From assembly GCA_026390595.1 (NCBI GenBank), contig JAPLFQ010000012.1, forward strand, positions 1 through 64,000: a stretch of DNA of 64,000 bases, given 5' to 3'. Each line of letters starts with the position of its first letter. The stretch's first letter is position 1. A model generated the notes under the pieces. It saw only the letters and a program-made list of their open reading frames with translations, made no database searches and was not told the origin of the DNA. This DNA comes from Ignavibacteriales bacterium (GTDB taxonomy: Bacteria; Bacteroidota; Ignavibacteria; UBA10030). Of the stretch, positions 1 through 17,452 are shown one piece after another. Position numbers and translations under genes: made by a program.

Positions 1-395
1 GGAGCGTAGCAGGACATGCTGTTCTTCCAGGTCCCGAACCAGAGAAAAACCAGCCTGATGTTGTGTTTCCTCGCACCGTTGATTGCACCATCAACAAGAG
101 AGAAGTCGAACGTTCCCTCAGCCGGTTCAATCAAGCCCCAATAGACCGGAACAAGCAAGGTGTTGAGGTTCATCTTCACGATCTTGGGCCAGATCTCGTC
201 AAGATACTTCAGGTCTGAGGCACTGGAGTTCCCCGTCTCGCCGGCGAGCATCAGAAATGGTCTGCCGTCAACAATGATATGCTTCGTATCCCCGTGATTT
301 TCCAAACGGGGAGTAGGCACAAGTTTGTTCGTCTGGGCGTTCAGAGAACATGTCAGGAAGACGAAAGTGAAAAAAACTTTACCCGCGTTTGACAT
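1..395 (-). CDS. GH35/GH42-like beta-galactosidase-type hydrolase, N-terminal part (cut by window edge)
   Basis: Reading the minus strand from the ATG at 395 gives an open frame to the window edge, about 131 residues. It starts with a signal peptide (VFFTFVFLTCSLNAQ), followed by HIIVDGRPFLMLAGETGNSS, then LDEIWPKIVKMNLNTLLVPV and a WGLIEPAEGTFDFS segment. That is the beginning of a TIM-barrel beta-galactosidase-like domain of the GH35/GH42 type (the pattern seen in DUF5597-containing proteins). The catalytic region lies outside the window, so substrate is unknown. It is the last visible gene of the minus-strand xylan locus, 47 bases downstream of the first GH10 xylanase stop. A role in trimming xylan or galactose side chains is inference. 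Confidence 0.7.
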   Translation of the reverse strand, partial: MSNAGKVFFTFVFLTCSLNAQTNKLVPTPRLENHGDTKHIIVDGRPFLMLAGETGNSSASDLKYLDEIWPKIVKMNLNTLLVPVYWGLIEPAEGTFDFSLVDGAINGARKHNIRLVFLWFGTWKNSMSCYA

Positions 396-442: not shown

Positions 443-2104
443 CTATTTCATCAAGGTCATTTTTCTCGATTCGATGAAGACCGGTTCCTGACCGTTCACG
501 GGTCGTGCCTGGAGTCGATAGTAGTATACTCCGCTGGGAAGGGTTGAGCCATCCCAATCCACTGTGTGACTCCCCGCTGAACGGGCTTCGTTCACCAGAG
601 TGCAGATTCCTCGACCGAGAACGTCGAACACCTCCAGTTTCACGAAGCTAATAGCTAATAACTGATAGCCAATAGCTGTTTTTGGATTAAACGGATTTGG
701 GTAGTTCTGCGACAAGGAGTACTCGGACGGAATGGCTCCTGTCTGTTCAACATCCGACATGACCTCCCCCGTAAGGAAATTCCCCAGCACCGAGTAATCA
801 CTGGTGCCGACCGAATTCGCGGCAGTGACACGCCAGTAGTACCGCACATTTGCGGCAAGCGGACGCAGGTTCAGCGTTGTGTCGGCAAGCGTGGTATCTA
901 CGACGAGAGGACTGAATGACCTGTTGTCAGCCAACTGCACATGGTAAGACGTGGCAAGAGTAGAAGATTGCCAGACCAGCTGAGGATCGCGCGGCGTGCC
1001 GTTCACACTCACTGGCGACATGAGCGCCGGAGGCACCGGAATGGTGATATATGTTTGGAGCCACTGAAAGGCAGGACGCGACCTGCCGTTCGCGTACAGC
1101 AGATAAGTGTCCGGGTACGAAGTCCAGACGTCATCATCGACGTAACCCCAGAATGTAATTCCCTTTACACTTGGATTGGTCCAGAAGATGGGGAAGTAGA
1201 TCATGTACTGTGCGAGCTGATCGGAATCAACGGGTTCATCGACATCAAATTCGGTAATATAGACAGGGAGGCCGGTGGCGGTCAGTCTGTTCAGGTTGCT
1301 TTTGATATCGGCGAGATTATAGACATAGCCGGTGGTCCCGACGCGGCTCCTGAACTCGAAGTAGTGTCCCTGCACACCGATGCCGTCGATGAGTTTCCGA
1401 TCCTTCAGCAGATTGATGATCGTCAGGTAGTTGGTCGTCGACGTCGTGTTGCCGAGGATATTGTAGTCATTCAAGATCAGCTTGACACCTGGTGCACAGT
1501 ATTGCCGCGCCCACGTGAACGCTGTGATCACCCAGTCCCATCCGGTAGCGCCATCACCTCCCAGCCCATTCTTGTACGAGGGGAGAGGTGTATGGAGCGG
1601 TTCGTTGACGACATCGACGAAATTCATCTTTGGATACCGCTGGCCGACGAGGCGAATCCAGTTTTCCACTTCCCTGCGTTGAGTGGCGGTATCAAGACCT
1701 GCGATCCACCCGGGTTGCTGGCTTCCCCAGACCAGTGTATGATGCTTGTAGATCATTCCATTTTGGAGCGCGTAATTGTACAGCGAATCAAGGTAGGTCC
1801 AGTTATATTGCCCCTGCGAAAACGAAACCGAACCCCATTTCCCTGCATTGCCGGGCGTCATCTGGTTCCAGTAGCGGGTCAGATGTCGGGAGATGGAGGA
1901 GCCCACGCTGCCACCAAGAAACCTTCCTTTGCCGTCGGCGAGCCGTTGCGCAGACAGCGGGACCGGCAAAAGACACATGACAGCAAGGACGAGACTCAGC
2001 GCACCGATCACACGAGGACTCACAATCGCCAGGTGGAATCGCATATGGAAATGAGACCAGGCGGAAAACCTGGATGCAAACCAACTCCACATGAGCTCGA
2101 TCAT
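443..2104 (-). CDS. Secreted GH10 endo-1,4-beta-xylanase with T9SS C-terminal domain
   Basis: Endo-xylanase that should hydrolyse internal beta-1,4 bonds of xylan outside the cell. Residue numbers are for the ATG at 2104, which has GGGAGAG a short distance upstream; an open frame reaches 2182 but crosses a palindrome, and an ATG at 2044 would give a more usual signal peptide length (MRFHLAIV...VPLSAQ). The GH10 barrel covers about residues 55-350: WNQMTPGNAGKWGS, acid/base Glu168 in VDVVNEP and nucleophile Glu285 in VYITEFD. A fibronectin-III-like domain follows (SYHVQLADNRSFS, YYWRVTAANS), then the T9SS tail with SQNYPNPFNPKTAIGY and GVYYYRLQ. The neighbouring gene encodes a paralogue. Confidence 0.93.
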   Translation of the reverse strand: MIELMWSWFASRFSAWSHFHMRFHLAIVSPRVIGALSLVLAVMCLLPVPLSAQRLADGKGRFLGGSVGSSISRHLTRYWNQMTPGNAGKWGSVSFSQGQYNWTYLDSLYNYALQNGMIYKHHTLVWGSQQPGWIAGLDTATQRREVENWIRLVGQRYPKMNFVDVVNEPLHTPLPSYKNGLGGDGATGWDWVITAFTWARQYCAPGVKLILNDYNILGNTTSTTNYLTIINLLKDRKLIDGIGVQGHYFEFRSRVGTTGYVYNLADIKSNLNRLTATGLPVYITEFDVDEPVDSDQLAQYMIYFPIFWTNPSVKGITFWGYVDDDVWTSYPDTYLLYANGRSRPAFQWLQTYITIPVPPALMSPVSVNGTPRDPQLVWQSSTLATSYHVQLADNRSFSPLVVDTTLADTTLNLRPLAANVRYYWRVTAANSVGTSDYSVLGNFLTGEVMSDVEQTGAIPSEYSLSQNYPNPFNPKTAIGYQLLAISFVKLEVFDVLGRGICTLVNEARSAGSHTVDWDGSTLPSGVYYYRLQARPVNGQEPVFIESRKMTLMK

Positions 2105-2138
2105 ACGAATTCTCTCTCCCGGACGTACACATTTCACC

Positions 2139-2162
2139 CATCCCGATCTTCCGGTCGGGATG
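2139..2162. repeat. Interspersed palindrome (CATCCCGAT-type hairpin) between the two GH10 genes
   Basis: An inverted repeat CCATCCCGATC / GTCGGGATGG with a 4-5 base loop. It lies between the stop of the upstream GH10 gene and the start of the downstream one. No T-run follows, so it is more like an intergenic palindromic (REP-like) element than an intrinsic terminator. A related hairpin, TCCCGAT / ATCGGGA, occurs near 18830-18852. Confidence 0.5.
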
Positions 2163-2184
2163 GCGTATTGACCAAAGTACACTG

Positions 2185-3900
2185 CTACTTCATCAGCAGC
2201 ATCTTCTTGCTGTCGACGTGATCGCCGGCCACGATTCGGTAAATATAGACACCCGAGGGCACGTTTTTGGCGTTCCAGACAACGGTGTGGGAACCCGCCG
2301 GTTTCTCCCCGTCGACGAGTGTCGCGACTTCACGCCCAAGTGCATCATATACGATCAGCTTTACAGAGCTGAGTTGTGAAAGGCCCGCCAGACCAGACTG
2401 CCCCTTCGTCAGGTCGGTAGGCAGGTGAAAGCTGATGGATGTTGTCGGATTTCCGCCAAAGGCGGATCCGCCTCCGGCGGAGAACGGATTCGGATAGTTC
2501 TGGTGCAGCGCAAACTCTTCCGGAATATGACCGCTCTCTTCTACGCCGACGACAGTCGAGTTAGTCACAAAACTACGTGTAAGCGAGTAGTCGCTCGTGC
2601 CGTAAGTGTTCGTCGCATTCACCTGCCAGTAGTGCGTAGTGTTTGGGCGAAGCGGGCTGAGCTGGAGAACAGTATCGCTCACCGTGGCATCCACAAGAGC
2701 AGTCGCAAGCGTGCTGTCGTCGGAGACCCGGACACGATATGAACTGGCCGATGATGAGGAACGCCAGATCAATTTCGGGTTACGCGGAACTGCTGATGCC
2801 CCGGTCGGAGAAATGATTGCGGGGATAGCAGGGCCCGCAACATATCCTTTGAGCCACTGAAGGGCAGGTCGGGGGGCATTTCTGTAGTCGATCAAGAACG
2901 CGTACGGCTTCCATATTGAGTTCTCCGCGTAACCCCACAGCGTAATACCTTTCACAGACGGATGGTCCCAGAACAAAGGGAAGTAGATCTGATAGTTTTG
3001 CAGCTGAATGCCGTCATCAATTTCGTTGATATCGAACTCGGTGATGTAGATTGGCAGTCCTCGCGTTGCCAGCCTGTCCAGATTGCTCTTCAAGGTGCTG
3101 ACCGGATAGGAGTAGGATGGACTCGAGCCTGCAGAACTCTTGAACTCAAAGTAATGTCCCTGGATGCCAAGGCCATCAATCAGGCCCCTCGCCTTCAGCG
3201 TGTCAATCAATGCAATGTATCTGTCTGTGACGGTGTTGCTTTGCAGGACATTGTACTCATTGATGTGAAGTTTTGCCCCGGGGAGATGTTTCCGCGCCCA
3301 CTGAAATACCGTGATCACCCAGTCCCAGCCGGTTGTACCGTTCCCTCCCAGGGCGTTTCTGTATGCAGCAGGTCCGTTCAACGGTTCGTTCACTACATCC
3401 ACGAAGGTCGTCTTCGGATACCGTTCTCCAACGAGCCGGATCCATTCTTCCACCTGGGCTCGCTGACTGGCTGAATCGAGCGATGTGATCCATGAAGGTT
3501 GCTGATTTCCCCACACCAGATTGTGATGCTTGTAAGGGAATCCATTCGTGATGGCAAAATTGTAGATGTTATCCAGAGGGGTCCAGGTGTACGCGTCCTG
3601 AGTCCCTTCAACGCTTCCCCATTTTCCCGCGTCGTCCGCTGTAACCTGGTTCCAATACTTCGTGAAATCGGAACGGACAGACTTCACACTGCTGCCGAGG
3701 AACTTGCCTTTGCCGGTCGCCAGTGGTTGAGACGACACAGTGTAAGGGAGGTACGCCAACGCTGCGATAAGAATCATAACGACTGTTTTGAACCACCGTG
3801 TGCAATCCGCGAGGCTTCGCGGTGACGACACGCCTGGTCGAAAATAATCGTCTGGATTCCTGGATAATCTAGTGTAGCGAACCTTGTGAAAAAGAAGCAT
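2185..3900 (-). CDS. Secreted GH10 endo-1,4-beta-xylanase with T9SS C-terminal domain (paralogue)
   Basis: Second GH10 xylanase. The ATG at 3900 has AGGAAG about 11 bases upstream; a GTG at 3912 sits right against the same AGGAAG and is less likely. After an N-terminal hydrophobic segment (VVMILIAALAYLPYTVSSQ) the GH10 barrel shows WNQVTADDAGKWGS, acid/base Glu172 in VDVVNEP and nucleophile Glu288 in IYITEFD. A fibronectin-like domain (SYRVRVSDDSTLA) leads to the T9SS domain, with HQNYPNPF and GVYIYRI. The T9SS domain is interrupted right after NYPNPF by a glycine-rich insert (SAGGGSAFGGNP) encoded by tandem palindromes at 2454-2482. Two adjacent GH10 paralogues suggest duplication for different xylan types. 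Confidence 0.93.
   Translation of the reverse strand: MLLFHKVRYTRLSRNPDDYFRPGVSSPRSLADCTRWFKTVVMILIAALAYLPYTVSSQPLATGKGKFLGSSVKSVRSDFTKYWNQVTADDAGKWGSVEGTQDAYTWTPLDNIYNFAITNGFPYKHHNLVWGNQQPSWITSLDSASQRAQVEEWIRLVGERYPKTTFVDVVNEPLNGPAAYRNALGGNGTTGWDWVITVFQWARKHLPGAKLHINEYNVLQSNTVTDRYIALIDTLKARGLIDGLGIQGHYFEFKSSAGSSPSYSYPVSTLKSNLDRLATRGLPIYITEFDINEIDDGIQLQNYQIYFPLFWDHPSVKGITLWGYAENSIWKPYAFLIDYRNAPRPALQWLKGYVAGPAIPAIISPTGASAVPRNPKLIWRSSSSASSYRVRVSDDSTLATALVDATVSDTVLQLSPLRPNTTHYWQVNATNTYGTSDYSLTRSFVTNSTVVGVEESGHIPEEFALHQNYPNPFSAGGGSAFGGNPTTSISFHLPTDLTKGQSGLAGLSQLSSVKLIVYDALGREVATLVDGEKPAGSHTVVWNAKNVPSGVYIYRIVAGDHVDSKKMLLMK
2454..2482. repeat. Tandem short palindromes inserted in frame in a T9SS domain
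   Basis: Two adjacent hairpin units, CCGCCAAAGGCGG and CCGCCTCCGGCGG, joined by AT. They lie inside the second GH10 gene and encode the glycine-rich stretch that splits the otherwise conserved NYPNPFNP motif. The reading frame stays open, so this looks like a small palindromic element accommodated in coding sequence. Confidence 0.6.
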
Positions 3901-3940
3901 CGGGGTACTCACTTCCTGATATCATCAACGATGGTCGTGA

Positions 3941-3977
3941 AATAAAAACGGCCCGCCCGTTGCTCACGGACGGGCCG
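3941..3977 (-). terminator. Intrinsic terminator after the three-repeat T9SS gene
   Basis: On the minus strand a 12-bp stem, CGGCCCGTCCGT / ACGGGCGGGCCG with one G-U pair and a 5-base loop, is followed by TTTTTATTT. It lies just past the stop codon at 3997 and separates the upstream transcription unit (receptor, beta-helix and repeat protein) from the GH10 genes. Confidence 0.85.
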
Positions 3978-3996
3978 CATATATCTGGTACAAACG

Positions 3997-6714
3997 TTAC
4001 TTCACCAACATCAGTTTCTTCACCGAGGTGAACGTGCCTGAACCATCCTGGCTCTGGGCATCGATCCGGTAGAGATAGGTACCGCTGCTCAGACCTGCAG
4101 CGTTCCAATGAATGGTGTACCTGCTCGGTGACTGGACTCCGTCCACAAGCTGCGCAACCACACGACCCAGCAAGTCATACACACGGATGGACACGCGTGC
4201 GGACTTTGCGACGTCATACGAGATTGCCGTCGAGGGATTGAACGGGTTCGGGTAGTTTTGAGCGAGTCCGAATTCCGCCGGAATCACGTTGGTATTCTGC
4301 TCGACATCGGTTGCCGCTCCCTGAGGTGCAACCAGAGGAAGTGTGCCGACATCCACGTAATCGATCTTGACATCGGTCAGCTTCATGCCGGTGGTCGCCT
4401 GACCGCCTGCAATGGCGAACGCAATAGAATTGAACTTGGTTGTTGCGACCGGGACATTGGTGTCTGTCAGCTTTCCGGTGATCGCGTAGCTGTTGTCGGC
4501 CTTGGCCAGTTTGAATCGTACATCAGCCCCGCCGGCTGTTGCTGCAACCGAAATAGCGAAGTTATAGATGCCCGCTTTGGCATCCGCATTCGCCGGAGTC
4601 TGGACCTGTGTTCCGAGTGTGTAATTCGACGTCAGGATTCCAGCACCCGCGGCCGGATAATCATTGTGCAGCCACGCACCGTTGACAACGGCGCCTGAGC
4701 TTGCTGTCTTGCTCAAGCCCGGCCAGCTGGCGAGACCGTTCGTTCCGCTTGGCGGGATGAACAGGTATCCGGTATGAGCTGTCTCCACTCCATCCCAGCG
4801 TGAGGAATCTGGAAGCGTGGCTTTCGAAGAGTCAACGATAACCTTTCCTGCCGCGTCGCTGTAGAAGACACCAAACCGGAAAGAGTTCGGTGCCTGGAAG
4901 CCGCCATTCACAAACTCCGTTTTTCCTGTAATAAGAAGCGCTTTCGTTGCGGTGGGTGTAACAGGGTCAAAGCCGCCACGGATTGCAGCCCATTTCCCGT
5001 TCGGAGCGGTGCCGCCGATTCCGGCATTTCCGACGATACGATCGGGATCTGGAATAAAGTTCCATCCGTACATTCGGCCACCAATGAAGCCCCACTGGTC
5101 AACGTAATATGCTTGCCATGGAGGTGCAGTGACAGTAATCGGAGCTCCTTTGTCAACCTTGACGTTGGTGAGTTTGAACGCCGATGTGGCGGCTTCTATG
5201 TCGTTGTTGATCCAGAAATGAACAAAATTGAATTTTCTGGATACTGCTCCTGCGTCAATGCCAATTCCACCCGTCCAGTATGTCGTTTGTTGATTTGCGG
5301 CATGCTGTTTTTCTATATAGAATCGTACCTCGTTTGTACCATTACTTAAGGCCTGAACGGAGATGGACCAATTATAGACGCCCATCGAAATTTCCGCAAG
5401 ACGGGGAGATTGAAGGATTGAGAAAATAGGCCCGCCGCCATTGCTAAACGTACTATTCCAGTTGCCGTTAATAACCGTCCAGATCACACCTGATCCACCT
5501 GAACCATTTGCCAGGTCGGTACCGCCTGACCTTGGTGTGAACTCGTATCCATAAGATCCTTTTGTGGTGCCGCTGGGAGCGCTCGTGACCCACAAGGCGG
5601 AGTCTTTCAGCCTATTGTTCAGTTTCATACTGTCCTGAAATGTCAAAGCGTAGCGAAGGCCAGTATAGGCCGGACCTGCACCACCTCCAACATACTCAAG
5701 CGATCCACTGACAATGATCGCCTCGCCTACTGCTACTGGAATCGTCTCGCCAAAACCTCCACTCAGGCTGGCCCCGGATGGTTTTGAGGCTCCGGACATC
5801 ATGGCATCTCCGACGAGGTAGGTAGAGTCGTTCTTGATCTTCCAGGCTGTTCCGCGACTCGCACCCCAATTGTCGACATAGAATGCTGCCCACGGTGCTG
5901 CAGTAACAGTAATCGGGGCTCCCTTCTGGACTGTGACGCCAGTCAGGTTCATCCCGGTTACGGAGGCGTCTATGTCGTTGTTGGTCCAGAACGAAATGAA
6001 ATTAAACTTCCTGGACACTGCGCCCGCGTCAATGCCGGTCCCGCCAGTCCAGTATGCAGATTGTCCACCGGCAGCGAATTGTTTCTGTATATAGAATCGA
6101 ACCTCGTTCGTGCCATTAGCCAATGCTGTGACCGAAATGCCCCAATCATAAACGCCCTTTGTGATTACCGCAAGGCGAGGAGCCTGAAGGATTGAGAATA
6201 TAGGACCGCCATTATTGCTGTAGGTACTATTCCAATTGCCGTTAGCAACTGTCCAGATCACACCTGATCCGCCCCCACCATTTGCCATGTCAGTACCGCC
6301 TGAGCGTGGTGTGAACTGGTAACCAGAGTGTGATTTTGTGCTGGTCCACATAGCGTCTACGGTATTTCGACCGCTCAATGACGCACTGTCCTGAAAATGC
6401 AGGGCATAGCGAAGCGCAGTATAGGCTGCACCTGGATCACCCCCAACAAATTCCATCTTGCCGTTGACGACGATCGTCTCGCCTGCGTTTAATGTGATTG
6501 TATTGAAACCACCGCTGAGTGAAGCCCCTGATGGTTTTGAGGCTCCGCCCATGCTGCCGTTTCCGGCAGGGGTAGTGGAAGTATTGAGTATCGGCCAGGC
6601 CGATCCGCGAGCGGTCTTACCCCATTGATCGACAAGGGTCTGAGCCTGCAACGCAGTTCCCATCAAACCGAGAACGACCGTTGCCAAGACCATTAACACG
6701 AAGAGTTTCTTCAT
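3997..6714 (-). CDS. Large secreted protein with three tandem approx. 270-residue repeats and T9SS tail, function unknown
   Basis: 905 residues; the ATG at 6714 follows AAAGGAG. A signal peptide ends at ALQAQ. Three homologous segments begin at LVDQWGKTARGSAW (about residue 27), YVDNWGASRGTAWK (about 290) and YVDQWGFIGGRMYGW (about 560). Repeats 1 and 2 share long stretches such as NGNWNST, GTNEVRFYI and AGAVSRKFNF; repeat 3 is more divergent. The end is a T9SS domain (AQNYPNPFNPSTAIS, SGTYLYRI). No catalytic motif is recognised. The beta-rich, aromatic-rich repeats and the position between a beta-helix protein and xylanases suggest a cell-surface carbohydrate-binding protein, but this is inference. 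It probably shares a transcript with the two upstream genes (gap 45 bases). Confidence 0.8.
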   Translation of the reverse strand: MKKLFVLMVLATVVLGLMGTALQAQTLVDQWGKTARGSAWPILNTSTTPAGNGSMGGASKPSGASLSGGFNTITLNAGETIVVNGKMEFVGGDPGAAYTALRYALHFQDSASLSGRNTVDAMWTSTKSHSGYQFTPRSGGTDMANGGGGSGVIWTVANGNWNSTYSNNGGPIFSILQAPRLAVITKGVYDWGISVTALANGTNEVRFYIQKQFAAGGQSAYWTGGTGIDAGAVSRKFNFISFWTNNDIDASVTGMNLTGVTVQKGAPITVTAAPWAAFYVDNWGASRGTAWKIKNDSTYLVGDAMMSGASKPSGASLSGGFGETIPVAVGEAIIVSGSLEYVGGGAGPAYTGLRYALTFQDSMKLNNRLKDSALWVTSAPSGTTKGSYGYEFTPRSGGTDLANGSGGSGVIWTVINGNWNSTFSNGGGPIFSILQSPRLAEISMGVYNWSISVQALSNGTNEVRFYIEKQHAANQQTTYWTGGIGIDAGAVSRKFNFVHFWINNDIEAATSAFKLTNVKVDKGAPITVTAPPWQAYYVDQWGFIGGRMYGWNFIPDPDRIVGNAGIGGTAPNGKWAAIRGGFDPVTPTATKALLITGKTEFVNGGFQAPNSFRFGVFYSDAAGKVIVDSSKATLPDSSRWDGVETAHTGYLFIPPSGTNGLASWPGLSKTASSGAVVNGAWLHNDYPAAGAGILTSNYTLGTQVQTPANADAKAGIYNFAISVAATAGGADVRFKLAKADNSYAITGKLTDTNVPVATTKFNSIAFAIAGGQATTGMKLTDVKIDYVDVGTLPLVAPQGAATDVEQNTNVIPAEFGLAQNYPNPFNPSTAISYDVAKSARVSIRVYDLLGRVVAQLVDGVQSPSRYTIHWNAAGLSSGTYLYRIDAQSQDGSGTFTSVKKLMLVK

Positions 6715-6759
6715 GATAATCCTACTCCTTTAGAAGGTTAACGAATTGTGGGTTAGTTA

Positions 6760-8535
6760 TTATTTCATGAGAATCAGTTTTTGTGTAAGTGAAGCCGTTC
6801 CGGATTGCAGACGATAGAAATAGACACCGCTTGTAAGCCCTTTGGCGTCGAACGTCGCCACATACTTACCGGGGTTTTGCTCTCCATCGACGAGTGTTGC
6901 TACTTCCTGACCAAGCTCGTTGAAGACCTTCAACGAAACATGGCCCGTCTTCGGGACAGAGTATTCGATTTGTGTCGACGGGTTGAAGGGATTTGGATAA
7001 TTCTGACTGAGCGCGTACTCCTGAGGAACAACGCTGCCCAGCTTCTCTACGCTTGAGGCCAGGGGATCCTTGCCCGTCGTCAACCACGTATTGATTCTTG
7101 TGTTTTCTGCAGCCGATTGTGCCGCCCACGCCGTGTACTGCGTTGGCCACCAATGATAGAGATCGCCCTTCGGGAACCCACCCATTGCACCGGTCTTCAG
7201 CTTGGTATTTGTATAAGACATGTTCTCCTTGACAGGCCATGTTTGCGTGTATGAATTCCACGACGCCCATTCCCACGGGTGATCGGAGTTGTCATTCCAC
7301 TTTTTATACAGGAATGTCTTCAAAGAATCTATGTTCACTGGCGGATTGACAAAACCAGGATTAATGCTGTCATTCTGGGCTCTGTTCATATACGGCCAGA
7401 CTTTCTTTCCCGCGGACGTTGAATCAAAAAATGTCAAGGTCTGACCATTGAACATTGGCATCGGAAGTGGTATGTCGGTATCAAGTCTGGTTCTATGCTT
7501 GTCCTGGCTGTAGGGGTTGCCATTGGGGCCCCATCCCATCCAATCGACGAGCCATGGGTCAAGAGCGTAGTTGTTGTATGCGAACAGTATGCGGCGATCC
7601 TGTTCGCTGAAGGGGACGGTGAATCCGAAGCCTCCTCCCATGGCACCGCTATCGATAGGAGCGATTGTAATAGTACCGCCATTGATGCCGCCCGGCGCCG
7701 ACGGGATGTAACCGTACATGAACGTGTTTATGAACAGGGAATTTGTAACATACATCTTCCACCACCATCCGCTCTCCAGCGGGAACTGGACAACGTTATA
7801 GAAGGTACAGTGGTTGAAGAAGACGTTATCTCCATAATTCGCTGCTTCTTGCATATAGACATATCCTATATTTGCGAAAGTGCAATTCTCGAATTGCAGA
7901 CTATCTGTATGTATTCCTTGAGCCGCATAGGGGACTGAGACTGCCCTGCTGTAGTATCTGAAATGATTGTCAGTGCAGTTTCTGAAATAACAGTTCTTGA
8001 TAAACCCTTTGAAATGAGTGGCAAACGGTTGTATGGCACCGCTGGAAGCTTGCTGCACATAATCGAACATGACGTTCGTAAATTCGCAGCGGCCGCCGAC
8101 TGAAGATGAATCGCCGACACGGATTGTTGAGGTAAATCGTGTCCCGTCAAGGCTGGCCCATAAGAGCCATGTGTTCGACATTTTGATTGTCCCGGCGATA
8201 TCGAACATGTATGTCTTGGAGGGAGCCGTACTGGCGGTCCAACAAATCATAGGCGGGGAAGTCGTCTGCGTGGTCCCGGGAGCATCTGCAGTAATTTCGA
8301 GCGTTTGTCCCGGAGGAGTAATGATAGATCCGGTAAGAACGTATGTGCCGTACGGCTTTAATTTGAAAATAGTATTTGACAATCTGCCACCAGTGATTGC
8401 TGCAGTCACGGCATCATTAAGCGTTCCTTCCTTACTTGTTTCCCAGTAATCGCTGACTACAACCACTTGTTTCTGTGCATAGAGTGATGTGCACATCATC
8501 GCTGCAAGGAATAGCGTGCGTAAAAGATGTTTCAT
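6760..8535 (-). CDS. Secreted right-handed beta-helix (pectate-lyase-like) protein with T9SS tail
   Basis: 591 residues from the ATG at 8535, chosen because GGAGGAAC precedes it and it gives a clean signal peptide (MKHLLRTLFLAAMMCTSLYAQ); an open frame extends upstream to 8877 but overlaps the receptor gene. The body resembles a parallel beta-helix of the polysaccharide-lyase type: ANTIFKLKPYGTY-like start (NTIFKLKPYGTYVLTG), then repeated turns FKGFIKNCYFRNCTDNHF, LQFENCTFANIGYVY and VFFNHCTFYNV. The T9SS domain ends it (SQNYPNPFNPSTQIEY, GVYFYRLQ). The fold class is fairly safe, the activity is not: it could be a lyase, a hydrolase or a binding protein. The locus suggests a plant-wall polysaccharide substrate. 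Confidence 0.82.
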   Translation of the reverse strand: MKHLLRTLFLAAMMCTSLYAQKQVVVVSDYWETSKEGTLNDAVTAAITGGRLSNTIFKLKPYGTYVLTGSIITPPGQTLEITADAPGTTQTTSPPMICWTASTAPSKTYMFDIAGTIKMSNTWLLWASLDGTRFTSTIRVGDSSSVGGRCEFTNVMFDYVQQASSGAIQPFATHFKGFIKNCYFRNCTDNHFRYYSRAVSVPYAAQGIHTDSLQFENCTFANIGYVYMQEAANYGDNVFFNHCTFYNVVQFPLESGWWWKMYVTNSLFINTFMYGYIPSAPGGINGGTITIAPIDSGAMGGGFGFTVPFSEQDRRILFAYNNYALDPWLVDWMGWGPNGNPYSQDKHRTRLDTDIPLPMPMFNGQTLTFFDSTSAGKKVWPYMNRAQNDSINPGFVNPPVNIDSLKTFLYKKWNDNSDHPWEWASWNSYTQTWPVKENMSYTNTKLKTGAMGGFPKGDLYHWWPTQYTAWAAQSAAENTRINTWLTTGKDPLASSVEKLGSVVPQEYALSQNYPNPFNPSTQIEYSVPKTGHVSLKVFNELGQEVATLVDGEQNPGKYVATFDAKGLTSGVYFYRLQSGTASLTQKLILMK

Positions 8536-8581
8536 AGTTGTTCCTCCACCTGTTTTGTTGGAGAATGAATGATTAGGTATT

Positions 8582-11500
8582 TCATAGCCGGTATCTGAGT
8601 CCCAAATTGCCCGTAAGGCCATAGTTCTGTTGACTCGTGAAGCCGTTGATTGATTGCTGAGCCGAGGCGTTGTTCCTGTTGTTGAGATTGAATATATCCA
8701 GGAAGACTTCGATGCCAAACCATGGAAGAATCTGTCGTACCGAAGCATCCATCCTGAAATAGTCTCTGGTGAAGCCGTCCTGCTCGGGGAAATTGCCAAT
8801 GTTGCTGACTGAATTACCCTGGAAGACAATCGACAAACGGGCGGAAAAGTTTTTGTAGTCGTAGCCGAGAGAAGCATTGACGATGTCGTTGGGCTGGTTC
8901 ACGAGACGCCCTGCACGAGTACTATCAAAGACTTCCGTGAGCGTCTGCCTGGGACCGATGATCGTTGTCCTGGCGTTTCTCCAGGGATACGTGGCATTCG
9001 AGGAAATCCGCGTGTAGTTGATACCGAGCAGCACTCCGTTGAGTGGCGACGGCAAATACCAGAACCGTGTCTGAAAATCCACTTCAATACCTCTGACGAA
9101 GGCAATATAAGGAGTATTCATATACGTGAAGAGGGTTGCTCCTTTTACAGGAGCCGTTCCTCCAATGCTGAAGGAATTGACCGTGGCAACGCCCGCGGGC
9201 GCTGTGGTGTAGAGCGAATATTGCGTTGAGTACGTGAAGTCCTTTATTTCCTTGTAGAAACCGGCGATGGAGAGAAGTCCCAGTTCATTGGTGTGGAACG
9301 TCAATATGAGATCATGGTTATAGGCATGGGCCGTTCTGAGATCGGGATTGCCGGACCGCACTGTGCCCTGGCCATAGCTGATGGTGTAGGATGGTGAAAG
9401 CTGATGATAATCCGGACGGGCCAACGTCTGTGTATATCCGGCACGGACATCACACCAATCCGTTACATCATATTTCGCCTGGACCATCGGAAGGAAGAAT
9501 TCATTTGTCGGAGTTGCATTCACATCGAAATATTTCTGGCTCTTGTCGTCACGTCCGTCCATCAGAACGTACGCATCGTACACTCCTTTGTCCTTTTCAT
9601 ATCGCGCACCGCCGATAACCATCAGATTTCCATACTTCAATTCAGACATCACGAATGCGGCAGTATAGTCCTCGACGTATTTGTAGGTATTAGGAAGAGT
9701 CTGGAAGTAGCCGTTGAACCAACCGCCGGGTTCCACCGCCGTCGCATTGTACGAACTGAATGCAGGATTGCCTGCAACATAATGGATGATGCCGGTAAGC
9801 AAACTGGGATCGTTGGCCCAAATGATGCCTCCGAAACGGTCGTCAAGAAAACTCTTAAGGATGTCACTGTCATGAGATGTAAAGCCGGTCGATGTGAAAA
9901 TGTTTAAACCGCTGTTGAACGTCATCCCCGGAAATTGTCCTCGGATCCCGTTCGAAATTGCCGACTGGATCGTGTTTGTTCCTGATATTGTTGCATAAGG
10001 CGTACGTTGAGAGTTTTGGTGGCGAGTGGTATTGAATTCACCGCCAAACTTCAGGTAGCCGGCCAGGTCGGAACCCAAACGAAACGGAACTTTGAAATCC
10101 GCCTTGTATGTCTGCCCGTTTTCCTTGTAGCTGGAGCTGAACAAAGTCAGCGTGTTGAGATACGTCGTCTCCGTGCCCCCATAGCGAATAAGGGAGGTCA
10201 GGTTCTCCGGAGTTGTGTTGGGTGTCGAAGTCCCGACACCGCGGGTCTGATAAAACTCGGATTGCGGCGCCTCGGGCAGATTGTTCCTTGAATAGTTGTT
10301 CGCCGCCCTGAGGTCGAACGTCATGAATCCCAGGTCATAACTGAAGACGAGCGAATTCATGGCCAGGTCAACGTTGTTCTCACCCTCCTGATACCTGAAA
10401 ATCAGATCCGATGTGAGCGAGGAATAGTTCAGTATTGTCCGATAGTCCCTGTAATCTGAATTCAGCCGGCTGAACATATTGACAAGTTTGATGGAGCCCG
10501 AGGGCAAAATATAATCAACTATCAGATTTCCGCCGAAACGTTTCCTGGTTTCAAAATGGCGGTTCAGCTGGACGTTCGTGACCCTTACAGGAAGATAGCC
10601 GTTATCACCCTTCGTGTCTGACGTGATTTCATAGCCGGCATTCATGTTGTCGGCATCACGGTCATACTGTTCAATATTCCCCAGGAGATACACGCCGAGC
10701 TTGTCATTCAAGAAACGAGTGCTTGCAGATGCGACTGCTCTGAAATTTCCATACTGATTGCTCTTCTGAGTATAGCCCGATTGGAAAAGAAAGTCGGAAT
10801 GGAAATCTGATGGGGCTTCGCGCAGCTCCATGTTCACGGTGCCGCCTATGGAATTGGCATTCATATCCGGCGTCAACGACTTGTAGACGGAGATAGATTT
10901 TATCATGTAGGGAGACATCATGGATAGATCTACACTTCTGTCATTGTTGATTGACCCGGCAGTTCCGCCCTGGGAGCTTACTCCGATCTGTGTGCTGCCA
11001 GTCGTTGCAAGCGAAACTCCGCCAATCGTAATTTGGTTGAACTTTGGAGCCAAACCTCTGATCACGACCTTGTTCGCTTCGCCGGAACTCTGGAGCGTGG
11101 ATACGCCCGGCAGACGGCTTATTGCCTGCGCTGCGTTGAAGTCCGGCAATTCCTGAATCCTTGCTTCAGAGACAATGCTCACAATCTTGTCTGATGCCAG
11201 CTGCTGGTTGATCGCCTGCATCTGGCCCTGGGCCTGCCCGGTGACGACGAACTCCTGTCCCTGGATCGCCACTGGCGCCAGGGAAAAGTCGTGAACAACT
11301 GTCTCGTCGTTCGAGATTTTCACCTCAGCGCTTACGGAGCGATACCCGATATAGGAGGCCTGAAGTGTGTAGGTTCCCGGAGGAACGTTGGGGATGGAAA
11401 ACCCGCCGTTCAGATCCGTCGAGGCTCCCAGGCTTGTTCCCTTGATCGTCACGTTGGCTCCAGGGAGCAGATCCTTCGTGTCCTTGTCGTACACTTTTCC

Positions 11501-11647
11501 TTTCAGCACCCCCCCCGCAAGGACCGTCTGAGCGACCAGAAGGAAAGATATTCCCGCCAGGAGAACGACCTTTGACCAGGAATGCCGTCCGACACGAAGG
11601 CCGGCCGACCACGTCATTGCTGCAATCAGACCCAATGATTTTTTCAC
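8582..11647 (-). CDS. TonB-dependent outer-membrane receptor with carboxypeptidase-like N-terminal domain
   Basis: 1021 residues. The start is GTG at 11647, with AAGGAGA 8 bases upstream. An extended signal region (VVLLAGISFLLVAQTVLAG) precedes a CarboxypepD_reg-like domain (GKVYDKDTKDLLPGANVTI, PPGTYTLQASYIGY). A plug domain follows (QAISRLPGVSTLQSSGEANK, VVIRGLAPKFNQITIGGV), then a long beta-barrel. It should import ligands across the outer membrane using TonB energy. Position upstream of the xylanase genes and downstream of xylA suggests xylo-oligosaccharides as the ligand, which is inference. No SusD partner is encoded next to it, so this is not a classic SusCD pair. Confidence 0.92.
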   Translation of the reverse strand: MKKSLGLIAAMTWSAGLRVGRHSWSKVVLLAGISFLLVAQTVLAGGVLKGKVYDKDTKDLLPGANVTIKGTSLGASTDLNGGFSIPNVPPGTYTLQASYIGYRSVSAEVKISNDETVVHDFSLAPVAIQGQEFVVTGQAQGQMQAINQQLASDKIVSIVSEARIQELPDFNAAQAISRLPGVSTLQSSGEANKVVIRGLAPKFNQITIGGVSLATTGSTQIGVSSQGGTAGSINNDRSVDLSMMSPYMIKSISVYKSLTPDMNANSIGGTVNMELREAPSDFHSDFLFQSGYTQKSNQYGNFRAVASASTRFLNDKLGVYLLGNIEQYDRDADNMNAGYEITSDTKGDNGYLPVRVTNVQLNRHFETRKRFGGNLIVDYILPSGSIKLVNMFSRLNSDYRDYRTILNYSSLTSDLIFRYQEGENNVDLAMNSLVFSYDLGFMTFDLRAANNYSRNNLPEAPQSEFYQTRGVGTSTPNTTPENLTSLIRYGGTETTYLNTLTLFSSSYKENGQTYKADFKVPFRLGSDLAGYLKFGGEFNTTRHQNSQRTPYATISGTNTIQSAISNGIRGQFPGMTFNSGLNIFTSTGFTSHDSDILKSFLDDRFGGIIWANDPSLLTGIIHYVAGNPAFSSYNATAVEPGGWFNGYFQTLPNTYKYVEDYTAAFVMSELKYGNLMVIGGARYEKDKGVYDAYVLMDGRDDKSQKYFDVNATPTNEFFLPMVQAKYDVTDWCDVRAGYTQTLARPDYHQLSPSYTISYGQGTVRSGNPDLRTAHAYNHDLILTFHTNELGLLSIAGFYKEIKDFTYSTQYSLYTTAPAGVATVNSFSIGGTAPVKGATLFTYMNTPYIAFVRGIEVDFQTRFWYLPSPLNGVLLGINYTRISSNATYPWRNARTTIIGPRQTLTEVFDSTRAGRLVNQPNDIVNASLGYDYKNFSARLSIVFQGNSVSNIGNFPEQDGFTRDYFRMDASVRQILPWFGIEVFLDIFNLNNRNNASAQQSINGFTSQQNYGLTGNLGLRYRL

Positions 11648-11730: not shown

Positions 11731-13053
11731 TTACCGCAGAATGTATGAGTTCAGAATATTCTCGAGCATTTCCTGCCGGCCCCCTGCGGGTTCGGGCTTG
11801 CCTTGCCTGCGGGCCCATTGGTCGAGCTCTGCGAGTCCGACTTTTCCAGCCATAATCTTCGCGCCGATACCTGACTTGAAGCTGCCGTAGCGCTCATCAA
11901 TGAACTTTGAAAACACTTTGTCCTTGATGATCTCGTGCGCAATCAGCAGCCCCTTCGCAAATGCATCCATGCCGCCAATATGCGCATGGAACAGGTCGTA
12001 GGGGTCGGTTGAACTCCGCCGTACCTTCGCGTCGAAATTGAGTCCCCCTTTGCCCAAACCATCCTGCTTGAGGATGACAAGCATCGCCAGGGTTGTCGCA
12101 TAGATGTCTGTCGGGAATTGATCAGTATCCCAGCCGAGAAGAAGATCGCCGCGGTTTGCATCGACGCTTCCGAGCTTGCCCGCTGCCGAAGCAACTGCGA
12201 GTTCGTGCTCAAACGTGTGCCCAGCGAGCGTGGCGTGGTTGGCTTCAATGTTGAGTTTGAAATGGTCGATCAGATCATATTCCTGCAAGAACGAAAGGGT
12301 CGTAGCGGCGTCGGTATCGTACTGGTGTTTTGAAGGCTCAGCGGGCTTCGGTTCGATGAGGAATTGTCCTTTGAAGCCGATTTTCTTCTTGTAGTCGACG
12401 GCCATGTGGAAGAATCGCGCCATCTGCTCCTGCTCTCGCTTGAGATCAGTATTCAGCAGCGTCTCGTATCCTTCGCGTCCCCCCCAGAAAACGTAGTTCT
12501 CACCGCCAAGCTCCTTCGTGGCGTCCATCGCATTCTTGACCTGTGCGGCAGCGTGCGCCATGACGTGGGCATTGGGGCTTGTACCTGCGCCCTGCGAATA
12601 AATCGGATCGCTGAACAAATTGGCCGTTCCCCACAACAGCTTGACGCCGGTTGCTTTCTGCATCTGCTTTGCAATCCGGACAATCTCCTGCAGGTTCTTC
12701 ACCGATTCAGAAAAGTTCTCACCTTGAGGAGCGATGTCGCGGTCATGGAAGCAGTAGTAATCGACACCAAGTTTCTGCAGGAACTCAAACGCGGCATCCA
12801 GCGTCTCTTTGGCGCGATCCATCGGGTCGCTCGCCTGGCGCCAGGCTCGTGCGAAACTGGCACCTCCGAACATATCGGCGCCGCTTCCCAGCATGGTATG
12901 CCAATAAGCGACGGCGAAGCGAAGATGCTCGCCCATCGTTTTGGAGCCGACGCGTTGATCTCTATTGTAGTACTTGAAAGAAAGGGGATTCCTGGAATCT
13001 TTCCCCTCGAATGGGATGGGTTTCTGGATTTTCGGGAAGTACGTTTTCGACAT
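11731..13053 (-). CDS. xylA: Xylose isomerase
   Basis: 440 residues, normal length for the long-form (class II) family. It interconverts D-xylose and D-xylulose in the cytoplasm. Family motifs include [29 protein letters not shown], the metal-binding stretch [20 protein letters not shown] and [20 protein letters not shown], and [11 protein letters not shown]. The ATG at 13053 has AAAGAA before it. It lies 27 bases after the sugar symporter gene, in one operon with symporter and GH3, fitting uptake of xylose released from xylan. No xylulokinase is in the window. Confidence 0.97.
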
Positions 13054-13080: not shown

Positions 13081-14586
13081 TCACGGGGTCACGGTTGAAA
13101 AACTCTTTCGCCTTTCCGCGAGCTCGTCCTGGATCTGAATATTCAGTTTCTTGTTGATCCCGTAATACGAAAGCGCTATCACACCGATGAGGAACGTGGT
13201 AGCAGGGAAGATACTTGCCGTCATGCGGATGCCCAGGAGGGCCCCTTCCGACTGCACGATGTTCGGAATGTATCCGTACGCCGCAAGCAGCCAGCCGCAA
13301 ATTGCCCCGCCGAATCCGAGTCCTGCCTTCAATGCAAACACAATCCCTGCAAACACAACGCCCGTAGCGCGGCGCCTGGTTTTCCATTCCGCATAATCGG
13401 CAACATCAGCCATCATGGCCCACAGCAACGGGATCGTCGGACCGTACGCGAGAGATTTCAGAAGATTCAGGATAAACGTGAGTCCCACGGCGTCGGATGG
13501 CAGCATGATGAACAGGGCAGTGAACAGGGTCGTCAGCGCCAGCCCCACGAGGAATACGGTCTTCTTCCCGAAACGTATCGAAAGAGGTTTGGACGCAATC
13601 ACGCCGAGGATCATCACAAACTGTCCGGACATGTTGAAGAGGCTGAATCCGACGGACGTAACGTTGGTCCGATCCGTCGTCGCGATGAGCCCGAATGCGT
13701 TCAGGATGTCATGCCACCAACTCGTGGCCACCAGAGTGCCGCCGGATGTGGTCGTCACGAGTCCCCACGATTGGAGGAAACCAAACAACTGGTTCTTGTC
13801 CACAAAGTAGGTAAAGTAGTAGAACATCGCGCTTCCCCACAGAGCGAGCGTGATGAAAAGAAACAACGTCAGCACGAACATCGAAATCCACGGGGTGTTC
13901 TTCAAAAGATCGGCGAAATCCTGCTTGGGGGATGATTTCTGGTTGGGATCCGGCTTGATGCGTTCGCGTACGCTGAAGAAGGTGATGACGAAGAAAACGA
14001 TACTCAGGAGAGCGAACACTCCGATCGTCATCGACCATCCCTTGGCGGCATCACCCTGCCCGAACTTGCTGACCATGGGGAGCGTCAATCCCTGTACGAC
14101 GAGCGCTGCGGCCATGGCAAAGAAGAAGCGGTAGGACGACAGGCTTGTGCGGTCGTTCACGTCACCGGTCATGACACCGTTGAGTGCCGAGTACGGCAGG
14201 TTGTTGACCGAATACACCGTCATCAGAAGGATGTAGGTGATGTACGCGTACACGAGTTTCCCGGTGCTGCCAAAATCCGGAGTGGTGAACGCAAGGAAGA
14301 ACATGACTGCGAATGGTACTGCTGACCAGAGGACCCAGGGCCGAAACTTACCCCATCTGGTGTTCGTGCGGTCTGCAACAACGCCCATGAAAGGATCAAA
14401 CGCTGCATCCCAGAATCGCCCCACAAGAAGTAAGGTGCCTGCAGCAACTGCGGAAAGGCCGAACACGTCGGTGTAGAAGCCCAGCTGAAAGATGAGCATC
14501 GTCTGGAAGACGAAATTGGCCGCGCCGTCTCCAAACCCGTAGCCGATTTTTTCCCTGACCGACAGCTTTTCAGTGCTTGATTGCAC
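13081..14586 (-). CDS. GPH-family sugar:cation symporter (MFS), probably for xylosides
   Basis: 501 residues with about 12 hydrophobic segments. The opening KLSVREKIGYGFGDGAANF-type start (EKIGYGFGDGAANFVFQTML) and DAAFDPFMGVVADRTNTRWG, RPWVLW are hallmarks of the glycoside-pentoside-hexuronide:cation symporter family (XynB/YicJ/MelB type). The start is GTG at 14586 with only a weak ribosome site. The last residues (ERRKSFSTVTP) are cytoplasmic. The gene sits between GH3 and xylA on the same strand with short gaps, so the likely cargo is xylose or short xylo-oligosaccharides taken up across the inner membrane, which the cytoplasmic GH3 then splits. Substrate is inference from context. Confidence 0.9.
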   Translation of the reverse strand: MQSSTEKLSVREKIGYGFGDGAANFVFQTMLIFQLGFYTDVFGLSAVAAGTLLLVGRFWDAAFDPFMGVVADRTNTRWGKFRPWVLWSAVPFAVMFFLAFTTPDFGSTGKLVYAYITYILLMTVYSVNNLPYSALNGVMTGDVNDRTSLSSYRFFFAMAAALVVQGLTLPMVSKFGQGDAAKGWSMTIGVFALLSIVFFVITFFSVRERIKPDPNQKSSPKQDFADLLKNTPWISMFVLTLFLFITLALWGSAMFYYFTYFVDKNQLFGFLQSWGLVTTTSGGTLVATSWWHDILNAFGLIATTDRTNVTSVGFSLFNMSGQFVMILGVIASKPLSIRFGKKTVFLVGLALTTLFTALFIMLPSDAVGLTFILNLLKSLAYGPTIPLLWAMMADVADYAEWKTRRRATGVVFAGIVFALKAGLGFGGAICGWLLAAYGYIPNIVQSEGALLGIRMTASIFPATTFLIGVIALSYYGINKKLNIQIQDELAERRKSFSTVTP

Positions 14587-14662: not shown

Positions 14663-16981
14663 CTATTTCACATGAAGCACCGTTTTTTCGAGGTCCCGGT
14701 CAAGCGAAGAACTCCCTACCATAATTTCGAAATCGCCGGGCTCGACAACATAGTGCTTTTCAATATTCGTAAACGCCAAGTGTTCCGGCAGAATGTCCAG
14801 GGCTACCGTCTTCGATTCCTTCGGTCCAAGCCAGACTTTCCTGAATCCCTTCAATTCCTTCACCGGGCGGGTCACGGAGCTGAACATATCACGTATATAC
14901 ATCTGAACGACCTCGGATCCGGCACGATTGCCGGTGTTCGTCACATCGATCAGGACCTTGGTCGATCCGTCCTTTTGAATCGTCTGATTCTCCAACCGGA
15001 GGTTGCTGAAGCTGAAGGTCGTGTAGCTCAGACCGAACCCGAAGGGATATAACGGTGTGATGTCGTCGAACAGATACCCGCGCCGCGCTGATGGCTTGTG
15101 ATTGTAGAAACAGGGAATGTGCCCTGCGGATCTTGGAATCGATACCGGGAGTTTGCCACCGGGATTGACATTCCCGAACAGCACATCTGCCACTGCCGAT
15201 CCGGTTTCCTGTCCCAGGTACCAGCATTCAAGTATCGCTGGAATGCGGGCGTGAATCTGGCTGAGACTGTTTGGACGTCCGTTGAACAGTACGAGGATCA
15301 CAAGTTTGCCTGTATCCAGAACGGCCTTTGCAAGCTCGTTTTGCATACCGAAAAGGTCCAGATCCGGCCTGTCACCCATGTGCACCTTGCTCCACGCTTC
15401 TCTGGACGTTTGTTCGTTGTCCCCGAGGACAAGCACTACTGCATCCGATTTCTGTGCTGCTGCGACGGCGAGGCCGATCAGCTTCCGGTTCTCTTCGGGA
15501 TCGGGAAGGGTGACGAGATCATCGCTCCATGAGCCGCCAATCGTGGTTTTGCATCCTTCACTATAGACCACATTCACACCTTCTCCCGCTTTTTCCTTGA
15601 TGCCCTGCAACACAGATTTGAAATGCGGGGGAGTGCCGCTGTACCCCCCAAGCAGCAACCGGTCCGCGTTTGGCCCGATGACCGCTATGGTGCTGTTCTT
15701 CCTGGGAGCGAGCGGGAGCAGGTTCGCTTCATTCTTCAGCAGCGTAATCGTTTCTCGCGCTGCCTGCAAAGCGATCGTACTGTCCCGTTCCAGGTTACGC
15801 TTGTGGCGTTGTTCGTCGAACTGAACGTAAGGGTCTTCAAAAAGACCAAGCTGGAATTTCAATCGGAGAAGCGGGGAGATCAGATTGTCGAGCGCTGACT
15901 CTTTCAGCTTTCCCTCGTTGATCAACCGCGTCAGAGCGGGATAACAGTCCGGGTCCGGGGTTTCGACATTGATTCCAGCCTCGCAGGCGAGGCGGGCGGC
16001 TTCGTCTTTGTCTTTCGCAACACGGAAACTTGACGCTTCTTCACGTTCATGGAGTTCCGTGATTGCGAAGTAGTCGGAGACGATGACACCGCGAAAACCC
16101 CACTCTCCCCGAAGAACATCCTGCAGGAGCCACCGGTTTGCGTGAGAGGGGACCCCATCAATTTCGTTGTAGGAGGGCATTACCGAGAGAGCGTTTGCTT
16201 TCCGAATGACTTCCCTGAACGGGAAGAAGAAGGTATCGCGCAGGAGGCGTTCTGAGAAATCGCCGGGACCGCAGTTGGAGCCGGACTCTGGCTGGCCATG
16301 TGCGGCAAAATGTTTGATGGTCGCGATGATCCGCTCCTTGTCCTTGAGCGAGCCGTCTCCCTGCATGCCGCGGACGGCGGCAATTCCCATCTGACTCACA
16401 AGGTAGGGGTCTTCGCCATACGTTTCCTCGAACCGTCCCCAACGAGCGTCACGGGCAAGGTCGAGATCCGGTGCCAGAGTCTGATGTGCTCCCCGCGCTC
16501 TTGTAGCTTCGGCGATGGAAGCGTGGATATTCTCGACAAGTTCAGGATTGAACGTCGAGGCCAGCCCTATCGGCTGCGGGTAGCTGGTAGCATCCCGCGC
16601 GACCAGTCCGTGAAGCGATTCTTCGTGGAAGATGGCGGGAATTCCGAGTCGGGTCTTTTCAACAAGGAACTTCTGAAGCGTATTCGTCAACTCCGCCATC
16701 TGCGCTGGTGACTGTCCTCCAGCCCTGTCGCTGATGCGCGCTATCTGTCCAATGCCGTTGCAGAGGTTTCGCTGAACGCTTGTATGGTCGAGTTTCCCCG
16801 TATCATCGAACAGGGAGGTGTGCGGCAGGCGCCAGATGCATAGTGCTTGCGCAGCCTTTTCTTCGACGGTCATGCGTGCCAGGAGATCGGCCAGGCGGGC
16901 GTCGACGGGCAGCCCGCAATCTTTGTACGCGGGCACTTCCTGACGGCTTTCCTGTTCCCTGAGAAGCGGTTTTTCTATCAT
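14663..16981 (-). CDS. Cytoplasmic GH3 beta-glucosidase/beta-xylosidase
   Basis: 772 residues from the ATG at 16981, preceded by GAAAGAA; an in-frame GTG at 17017 is also possible. There is no signal peptide, so the enzyme should act in the cytoplasm. The GH3 N-terminal barrel shows IPAIFHEESLHG, DARWGRFEETYGEDPYLV, KHFAAHGQPESG and the catalytic nucleophile Asp303 in VIVSDYFAI. The second domain has ITLLKNEANLLPL and a GDNEQTSREAW segment; the C-terminus is a fibronectin-III-like domain (VTNTGNRAGSEVVQMYIRD). The locus argues for beta-xylosidase action on imported xylo-oligosaccharides, but beta-glucosidase cannot be excluded from sequence alone. First gene of the minus-strand operon with the symporter and xylA. 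Confidence 0.93.
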   Translation of the reverse strand: MIEKPLLREQESRQEVPAYKDCGLPVDARLADLLARMTVEEKAAQALCIWRLPHTSLFDDTGKLDHTSVQRNLCNGIGQIARISDRAGGQSPAQMAELTNTLQKFLVEKTRLGIPAIFHEESLHGLVARDATSYPQPIGLASTFNPELVENIHASIAEATRARGAHQTLAPDLDLARDARWGRFEETYGEDPYLVSQMGIAAVRGMQGDGSLKDKERIIATIKHFAAHGQPESGSNCGPGDFSERLLRDTFFFPFREVIRKANALSVMPSYNEIDGVPSHANRWLLQDVLRGEWGFRGVIVSDYFAITELHEREEASSFRVAKDKDEAARLACEAGINVETPDPDCYPALTRLINEGKLKESALDNLISPLLRLKFQLGLFEDPYVQFDEQRHKRNLERDSTIALQAARETITLLKNEANLLPLAPRKNSTIAVIGPNADRLLLGGYSGTPPHFKSVLQGIKEKAGEGVNVVYSEGCKTTIGGSWSDDLVTLPDPEENRKLIGLAVAAAQKSDAVVLVLGDNEQTSREAWSKVHMGDRPDLDLFGMQNELAKAVLDTGKLVILVLFNGRPNSLSQIHARIPAILECWYLGQETGSAVADVLFGNVNPGGKLPVSIPRSAGHIPCFYNHKPSARRGYLFDDITPLYPFGFGLSYTTFSFSNLRLENQTIQKDGSTKVLIDVTNTGNRAGSEVVQMYIRDMFSSVTRPVKELKGFRKVWLGPKESKTVALDILPEHLAFTNIEKHYVVEPGDFEIMVGSSSLDRDLEKTVLHVK

Positions 16982-17059
16982 TGTTTTCTTTCGTGGCGAG
17001 TTCCAAAGCAGGCTCACGGTTAGAGCGCCATACTTCAGATGGAAGCGAATGCAGGTACA

Positions 17060-17110
17060 CCGGCATAGGCGGAGGCTTTGCGGAGGCCATGCCTCAGCTC
17101 ATTATGCCGG
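17060..17110. repeat. Nested inverted/direct repeat in the GH3-uxuA divergent region
   Basis: CCGGCATA at 17060-17067 is mirrored by TATGCCGG at 17103-17110. The interior carries GCGGAGGC twice, separated by TTT. It lies in the spacer between divergent genes. Either a structured leader for the GH3 transcript or an intergenic palindromic element; no T-run supports a terminator. Confidence 0.4.
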
Positions 17111-17227
17111 CTTGAACCCATTCATCCGCAGTCATCTCGGTCTCATTGATGTGGGACCCCTGTTCCGTGGGAATTGCTTCTATCGGAAGGCAGGAACTGC
17201 GGTACTATTTAATGGGTTAAACAATAA

Positions 17228-17241
17228 TTGAACCGTTTCAA
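17228..17241. promoter_or_regulatory. LacI-type operator candidate between GH3 and uxuA
   Basis: TTGAACCGTTTCAA is a near-perfect palindrome centred on CG (one mismatch between half-sites), flanked on both sides by A/T-rich ATAAT runs. The central CG and half-site form are typical of LacI-family operators. Its place in the 471-base spacer of divergent sugar genes suggests coordinate control of the operon and uxuA. No LacI-family gene is in the window. Confidence 0.5.
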
Positions 17242-17452
17242 TAATAATTAGGGAGTTTCAAGAAGTCAAGAAAAAAAACACTATTTTGGTCAATGGGGGC
17301 GTCCCATTTTCGAGAGAATTCATTGAATCCCCCGGAAATCAGTCCGTTCTCTCGCCGCCGATGTGGCGATCGTCATGTTTGAGGTCTGCAAGCTCGTTTC
17401 TGACCTGATGGCATTCAAATGAGCACCAAATACTTAGAAAAGGAAACAACTC

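Follow-up and report, generated by a model that had tools for sequence, protein, structure and literature searches.

The open reading frame at positions 3997-6714 on the minus strand of an Ignavibacteriales contig probably encodes a non-catalytic, multivalent, SGBP-like surface xylan binder, which belongs to a locally SusD-less uptake module. The window, i.e. the whole stretch of DNA analysed, is 64,000 nucleotides long. For plant-glycan uptake by Ignavibacteria and their kin, which have few SusCD pairs in their gene clusters, the protein family offers a candidate for the missing capture component that can be put to the test. It is possibly a new family of xylan-binding modules, and it is also present in a cultured organism (inferred to be Melioribacter roseus).

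Repeats, sorting domain and predicted fold

The reading frame is a genuine ORF of 905 amino acids, starting at an ATG that is preceded by a Shine-Dalgarno-like AAAGGAG. It is divided as follows:

6640..6714 (-), signal peptide, residues 1-25; hydrophobic, with no lipobox cysteine; read from the translation
5887..6642 (-), repeat 1, N-type, residues 25-276; profile match; pairs with repeat 2 in the tree (100/100)
5113..5886 (-), repeat 2, N-type, residues 277-534; profile match; modelled as a ConA-like jelly roll
4321..5112 (-), repeat 3, C-type, residues 535-798; profile match; orthologous family-wide
3997..4320 (-), linker, then sorting domain of T9SS type A; Por_Secre_tail at residues 821-889 (Pfam 4.7e-8, NCBIfam TIGR04183 5.1e-9)

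Three repeats of about 270 residues had been proposed in a sequence-only reading of the same DNA. The repetition was recovered at a slightly shorter length of about 255 residues, and the three repeats are real, chance being excluded because the repeat profile scores E 1e-78 to 1e-98 on each of them. Repeats 1 and 2 are 67% identical, and repeats 3 and 2 are 32% identical. The same reading rightly called this a T9SS protein: Por_Secre_tail scores 33.7 bits against a Pfam gathering score of 27, and its type-A tail, found in both Pfam and NCBIfam, provides the surface export signal expected of an SGBP. The usual SGBPs have a lipoprotein cysteine, whereas this protein is without one.

Apart from its tail, the whole protein is matched by nothing in Pfam and NCBIfam. 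No convincing Pfam, NCBIfam or PHROGs family was found for the repeats, either as single repeats or with 52 of them scanned individually, and profiles of 10 and of 52 repeats found no PDB chain better than E 0.05. The absence of a recognised sequence family, as first claimed, was thus borne out, none of the four collections giving an explanatory match. Membership of a ConA-like fold family was likewise not detected by sequence in Pfam, NCBIfam or the PDB sequences, where remote homology may lie below detection. The repeat sequence family and its arrangement also appear to be undescribed in the literature searched, which was open-licence PMC by text queries and not by repeat sequence.

One of the 52 repeats gave a weak match to NF058548 (DUF4627, E 0.0012), which is its likeness to BT4411/DUF4627, described as hyaluronan-associated in the excerpted text of PMC12877422. 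This kinship was rejected: profile comparison by hhalign with the single DUF4627 protein obtained (from 1 of 345 genomes) gave a probability of 0.3%, so that the two are unrelated on this test.

The window protein matches 131 places in its own genome, one of them being the gene itself. Judging by the part of the query that they match, we took the others to be T9SS tails, a few of which extend upstream of the tail. Since nearly all of the 131 matches come via the tail, this genome has a large T9SS secretome. The repeat profile matches only the three repeats of this gene in the same genome, giving one gene copy, and a plasmid search with the window protein found T9SS tails only.

The fold had been called unknown, and structure prediction of one repeat had been named as a check. 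When run on repeat 2, it made the fold recognisable as ConA-like. AlphaFold2, given a ten-row alignment, produced an all-beta model with a mean pLDDT of 85.5 and a pTM of 0.87, weakest at 124-131. The top PDB matches to this model in Foldseek are domains of legume lectins, calreticulin, Emp46p and ERGIC-53, with a best E-value of 2.6e-5, modest TM-scores of 0.3-0.55 and identities of 15% or less. VIA-align gave Z 12.7 to the thrombospondin C-terminal domain and 12.2 to Bacillus 1oq1; the 50 matches listed have Z 10.6-12.7 over 173-192 residues, are mostly legume lectins and span residues 1-251. A viral fold library returned only weak ConA-like matches and unnamed phage proteins. From the model and these matches, the repeat domain is predicted to be a concanavalin-A-like jelly roll with the two-sheet topology. 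A shared fold reveals no function.

Repeat types and conserved residues

A repeat tree was built from 12 proteins taken as complete, having a total of 41 repeats. All 12 C-terminal repeats form a single clade (100/98), which is recovered in 99% of bootstrap trees. The first and middle repeats are intermingled, with pairs formed inside one protein, e.g. repeat 1 with repeat 2 of the window protein. The tree indicates that N-terminal repeats have multiplied in place within lineages and that the C-terminal repeat is one orthologous clade.

Gly337, Trp375, Gly389, Pro437, Tyr447, Tyr479 and Asn496 are invariant over 67 repeats, and Arg354 is kept in 97% of them. The aromatic-rich blocks noticed in the sequence-only reading correspond to columns that are kept across the 67 repeats. 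Aromatic residues at positions 350, 423, 466 and 480 occur in 89-98% of the 46 N-type repeats versus 5-37% of the 21 C-type repeats, making Tyr350, Phe423, Tyr466 and Trp480 of repeat 2 candidates for a glycan-binding platform.

The acidic residues bear on another reading, in which the jelly roll would belong to an undescribed hydrolase or lyase family, ConA-like folds often being enzymes of these kinds. The fold matches include the GH16-type VvEG16 as well as alginate and ulvan lyases. Three acidic positions are kept in the C-type repeats (Asp556 1.00, Asp751 0.95 and Glu644 0.86, n=21), and the near-invariant Arg354 and invariant Asn496 would also suit an enzyme. The invariant carboxylates that a GH or PL would carry in all its domains were not seen: the top acidic column reaches 84% across the 67 repeats, and none exceeds 80% in the 46 N-type repeats. 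Moreover, it would be unusual for catalytic domains to stand in tandem arrays of three to five or more with no known catalytic partner. We consider an enzyme improbable, and the repeats are read as non-catalytic because no acidic column exceeds 84% while Trp375, Tyr447, Tyr479 and Asn496 are invariant. Given its three kept acidic positions, a different, even catalytic, role is possible for the C-type repeat.

Family, locus and xylan context

Family members were detected in 27 genomes, of which four lie outside the class of the window. Within that class, 23 of 391 genomes gave a match to the repeat profile, one of them weak and dropped; in the phylum set 9 of 395 did so, four of the nine lying outside the class. 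The count of 27 includes L011, whose genome is absent from both searched genome sets. The dropped genome (G128), matched over 75 residues at E 2e-4 and 5e-5, was regarded as an unproven member. Its locus L144 carries at 6134-9967 (-) a 1278-aa T9SS protein adjoining a receptor-like gene, perhaps a remote relative.

Family proteins carry three to five or more repeats. Five members have an N-terminal CBM_4_9 domain above the Pfam gathering score, and a sixth, in L122, is CBM_4_9-like by phmmer and below the gathering score. One four-repeat homolog with an N-terminal CBM_4_9 (L121, 8200-12009) comes from a genome (G153) inferred to be that of Melioribacter roseus P3M-2, a cultured xylan user, and lies close upstream of GH10, GH30, GH43 and GH115 genes. 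According to the excerpted text of PMC3534657, this organism grows on xylan and has a xylan enzyme cluster, Mros2087-2093.

The repeat gene of the window has the following neighbours:

443..2182 (-), GH10 xylanase with a T9SS-like tail (Pfam GH10 7.3e-63)
2185..3912 (-), GH10 xylanase with a T9SS-like tail (Pfam GH10 1.3e-59)
3948..3978 (-), terminator-like hairpin downstream of the repeat gene; its 13-bp stem has 10 G-C pairs and is followed by TTTTATTT
6760..8535 (-), T9SS beta-helix-like protein, from the translation; Por_Secre_tail 6e-10, Beta_helix only 0.076
8582..11647 (-), TonB-dependent receptor with CarbopepD_reg_2 (Pfam)
11731..13053 (-), xylose isomerase-like TIM barrel (Pfam PF01261 5.4e-10)
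13081..14586 (-), MFS_2 (GPH-type) sugar transporter (Pfam PF13347 3e-91)
14663..17017 (-), GH3 of beta-xylosidase or beta-glucosidase type (Pfam GH3 N and C domains)

Because the window begins at the contig end, the left part of the locus is missing. At 3-395 (-) lies the start of a glycosidase-like gene, truncated there; a relative of it in L134 matches DUF5597 and GH42/GH35.

The receptor gene is followed after 46 nt by the beta-helix gene and after a further 45 nt by the repeat gene, all on one strand, an apparent operon that agrees with the shared transcript proposed earlier. The fetched loci hold 36 repeat ORFs, seven of which run off the contig upstream and one of which is the rear part of a gene split in two. 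The remaining 28 all have a same-strand beta-helix gene as their immediate upstream neighbour, at a distance of 16-332 nt that includes the stop codon. Beyond it comes the TonB receptor in 26 of the 27 cases where this gene is visible. Only a second copy in G535 departs from this order, having two beta-helix genes before it; in L194 of this genome, a TonB receptor is spread over two ORFs (15521-18666), a possible frameshift or assembly error. A terminator-like hairpin comes after 23 of 27 repeat genes, as against 4 of 30 beta-helix genes and 1 of 30 receptor genes. Therefore, the repeat gene usually closes the unit, and transcription of the GH10 genes may be separate or depend on read-through.

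Xylan-degrading enzymes were labelled by phmmer at a cut-off of E 1e-15, with one or two example sequences per family as references. In the fetched regions GH10 was found in 23 of the 27 genomes, GH30 in 15, GH43 in nine, GH115 in eight and GH8 in six. Pfam confirms the GH115, GH8 and GH43 examples and GH10 in the window, with modest support for the GH30 example (GH30 8.6e-7, GH59 7.3e-7). As controls we used loci brought in by the T9SS tail. At least one of GH10, GH30, GH43, GH115 and GH8 lies near the family gene in 26 of 27 genomes versus 0 of 77 control loci, a contrast that is partly inflated because the controls average 14 kb against about 26 kb for the family regions and come from other genomes. 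The beta-helix gene is absent from all 77 control loci at the same cut-off. The sole genome without these glycoside hydrolases is L011, an 11-kb contig end with a GH3 and a transporter.

The assignment to a xylan locus consequently stands, with two GH10 genes in the window, and the profile search for relatives in xylan loci, which had also been suggested, extends it to the 26 genomes. As for an SGBP, the gene shares its locus with a TonB transporter and glycan-degrading enzymes. The original proposal left xylan binder and surface scaffold side by side. Because receptor, beta-helix gene and xylan enzymes co-occur across the 27 genomes, xylan binding is favoured over a generic scaffold or S-layer protein, and we infer from the sequence data that the repeats bind xylan.

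A scaffold, in which the repeats would bind no glycan but keep the T9SS xylanases assembled, or link the beta-helix protein to the receptor, would account for the constant partners and for the C-terminal repeat being kept as a single ortholog, and GH10 and GH30 neighbours bear T9SS tails too. It is nevertheless unlikely, as the repeats stay while the hydrolases vary between loci, and as CBM_4_9 is fused in five members. There is a small probability that the ligand of the repeats is a different plant glycan encountered alongside xylan (cellulose, mixed-linkage glucan or xyloglucan). VvEG16, among the fold matches, binds mixed-linkage glucan and xyloglucan, and GH2, GH3 and GH116 genes occur in some loci, but the recurring neighbours are GH115, GH8, GH43, GH30 and GH10. 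T9SS tandem beta-sandwich repeats also resemble adhesins, and lectin domains of SasG and SraP are in the fold list. Still, a general adhesin or surface-layer protein unrelated to feeding is hardly credible when the gene is single-copy in the window's genome and receptor, beta-helix gene and xylan enzymes accompany the family in 26 of 27 genomes.

Beta-helix partner, SusD and known systems

The beta-helix protein at 6760-8535 is a constant partner of the TonB receptor and is without a firm Pfam family; the Pfam and NCBIfam scans included about 23 residues before its likely start. AlphaFold2 gave it a pLDDT of 44 from three sequences, the first again with the roughly 23 extra residues. It is more widespread than the repeat protein, being found in 49 of 391 genomes of the class at E 1e-10. 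In 18 of 29 further beta-helix loci, the beta-helix gene is followed by a gene for a protein of 880-1247 aa. These slot proteins were picked by position and size, and the other 11 loci have no such protein or run off the contig:

loci L157-L161, L163-L165, L167-L174, L179 and L181, FG-GAP/UnbV_ASPIC/fn3 slot proteins

All 18 have FG-GAP, UnbV_ASPIC and fn3 domains, and 15 have a T9SS tail (Pfam). They were rejected as distant family members, since the iterated repeat profile matched 0 of 18 at E-values up to 1. Several of these loci also have GH10 genes, and therefore the repeat family is not required for xylan use. The third slot thus has two alternative occupants, surface proteins unrelated to each other, which supports an accessory role in capture.

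No SusD_RagB match was found inside any fetched family region. Elsewhere, PF07980 is present in 12 of the 22 family genomes that belong to the class and in three of the five others, i.e. in 15 of 27; the search with PF14322 covered 22 genomes. G603 has fifteen SusD matches, with SusD on the same contig about 90 kb from the family locus. SusD is on the same chromosome as the family locus in G153, at about 1.5 Mb, and in G535, at 0.2 Mb or more, and several SusD matches are on contigs other than that of the family locus. The locus is therefore SusD-less locally, and most of the family's bacteria are not SusD-less overall. In the excerpted text of a paddy-soil study, susCD is scarce in Ignavibacteriales clusters (PMC10576277).

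With the repeat protein taken as a xylan binder, the module would work as follows. The protein would be exported by the T9SS and held at the cell surface, where the N-terminal repeats would bind xylan chains through their conserved aromatics and gain avidity from being present in several successive copies. A separate task would fall to the C-terminal repeat beside the anchor, possibly that of docking to the beta-helix protein or the receptor. Surface-held xylan would be cut by the T9SS GH10 and GH30 enzymes and the pieces would enter via the receptor. The repeat protein would thereby take the place of SGBPs and, jointly with the beta-helix protein, that of SusD. More tentatively, and with rather less than even confidence, we propose that TonB receptor, T9SS beta-helix protein and lectin array form an uptake complex in which T9SS-delivered proteins replace SusD and SGBPs. 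The beta-helix protein would be the fixed partner of the receptor, and the third slot an exchangeable capture arm, either a ConA-like array or an FG-GAP/ASPIC propeller.

The repeat protein does not belong with SusD/SGBP-A, as there is no Pfam SusD match and the model is all-beta, not of the helical TPR type. Legume-type lectins and the thrombospondin C-terminal L-lectin domain share the predicted jelly roll, aligned over the whole domain, but identity is 15% or less in the matches listed and no PDB profile match was found. CBM4/CBM9 (PF02018), fused N-terminally in the five members, is a separate domain that the repeats do not match. The X122 domains of Teredinibacter turnerae (8q2a, ranked 14th in the Foldseek list at 10% identity to the repeat 2 model) are likewise ConA-like beta-jelly rolls of polysaccharide-related surface or extracellular proteins. 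In the excerpted text of PMC10916295 they show neither activity nor significant plant-wall binding, a point against the binding reading; they differ from the repeat protein in sitting in redox proteins and in having shown no clear binding.

A further likeness is to Cytophaga hutchinsonii, where, according to the excerpted text of PMC12016534, an SGBP-B-like protein is essential in a cluster without SGBP-A. CHU_1279 of this bacterium is also a multi-domain beta-sandwich surface protein in a polysaccharide locus, in a cluster without a SusD homolog; as described there, it is set apart by two CBM-like domains resembling CBM22 and binds cellulose (PMC12016534, same excerpts). Proteins of the repeat family differ from it: their ConA-like repeats number three to five or more, they carry a T9SS tail, and a beta-helix protein is their partner.
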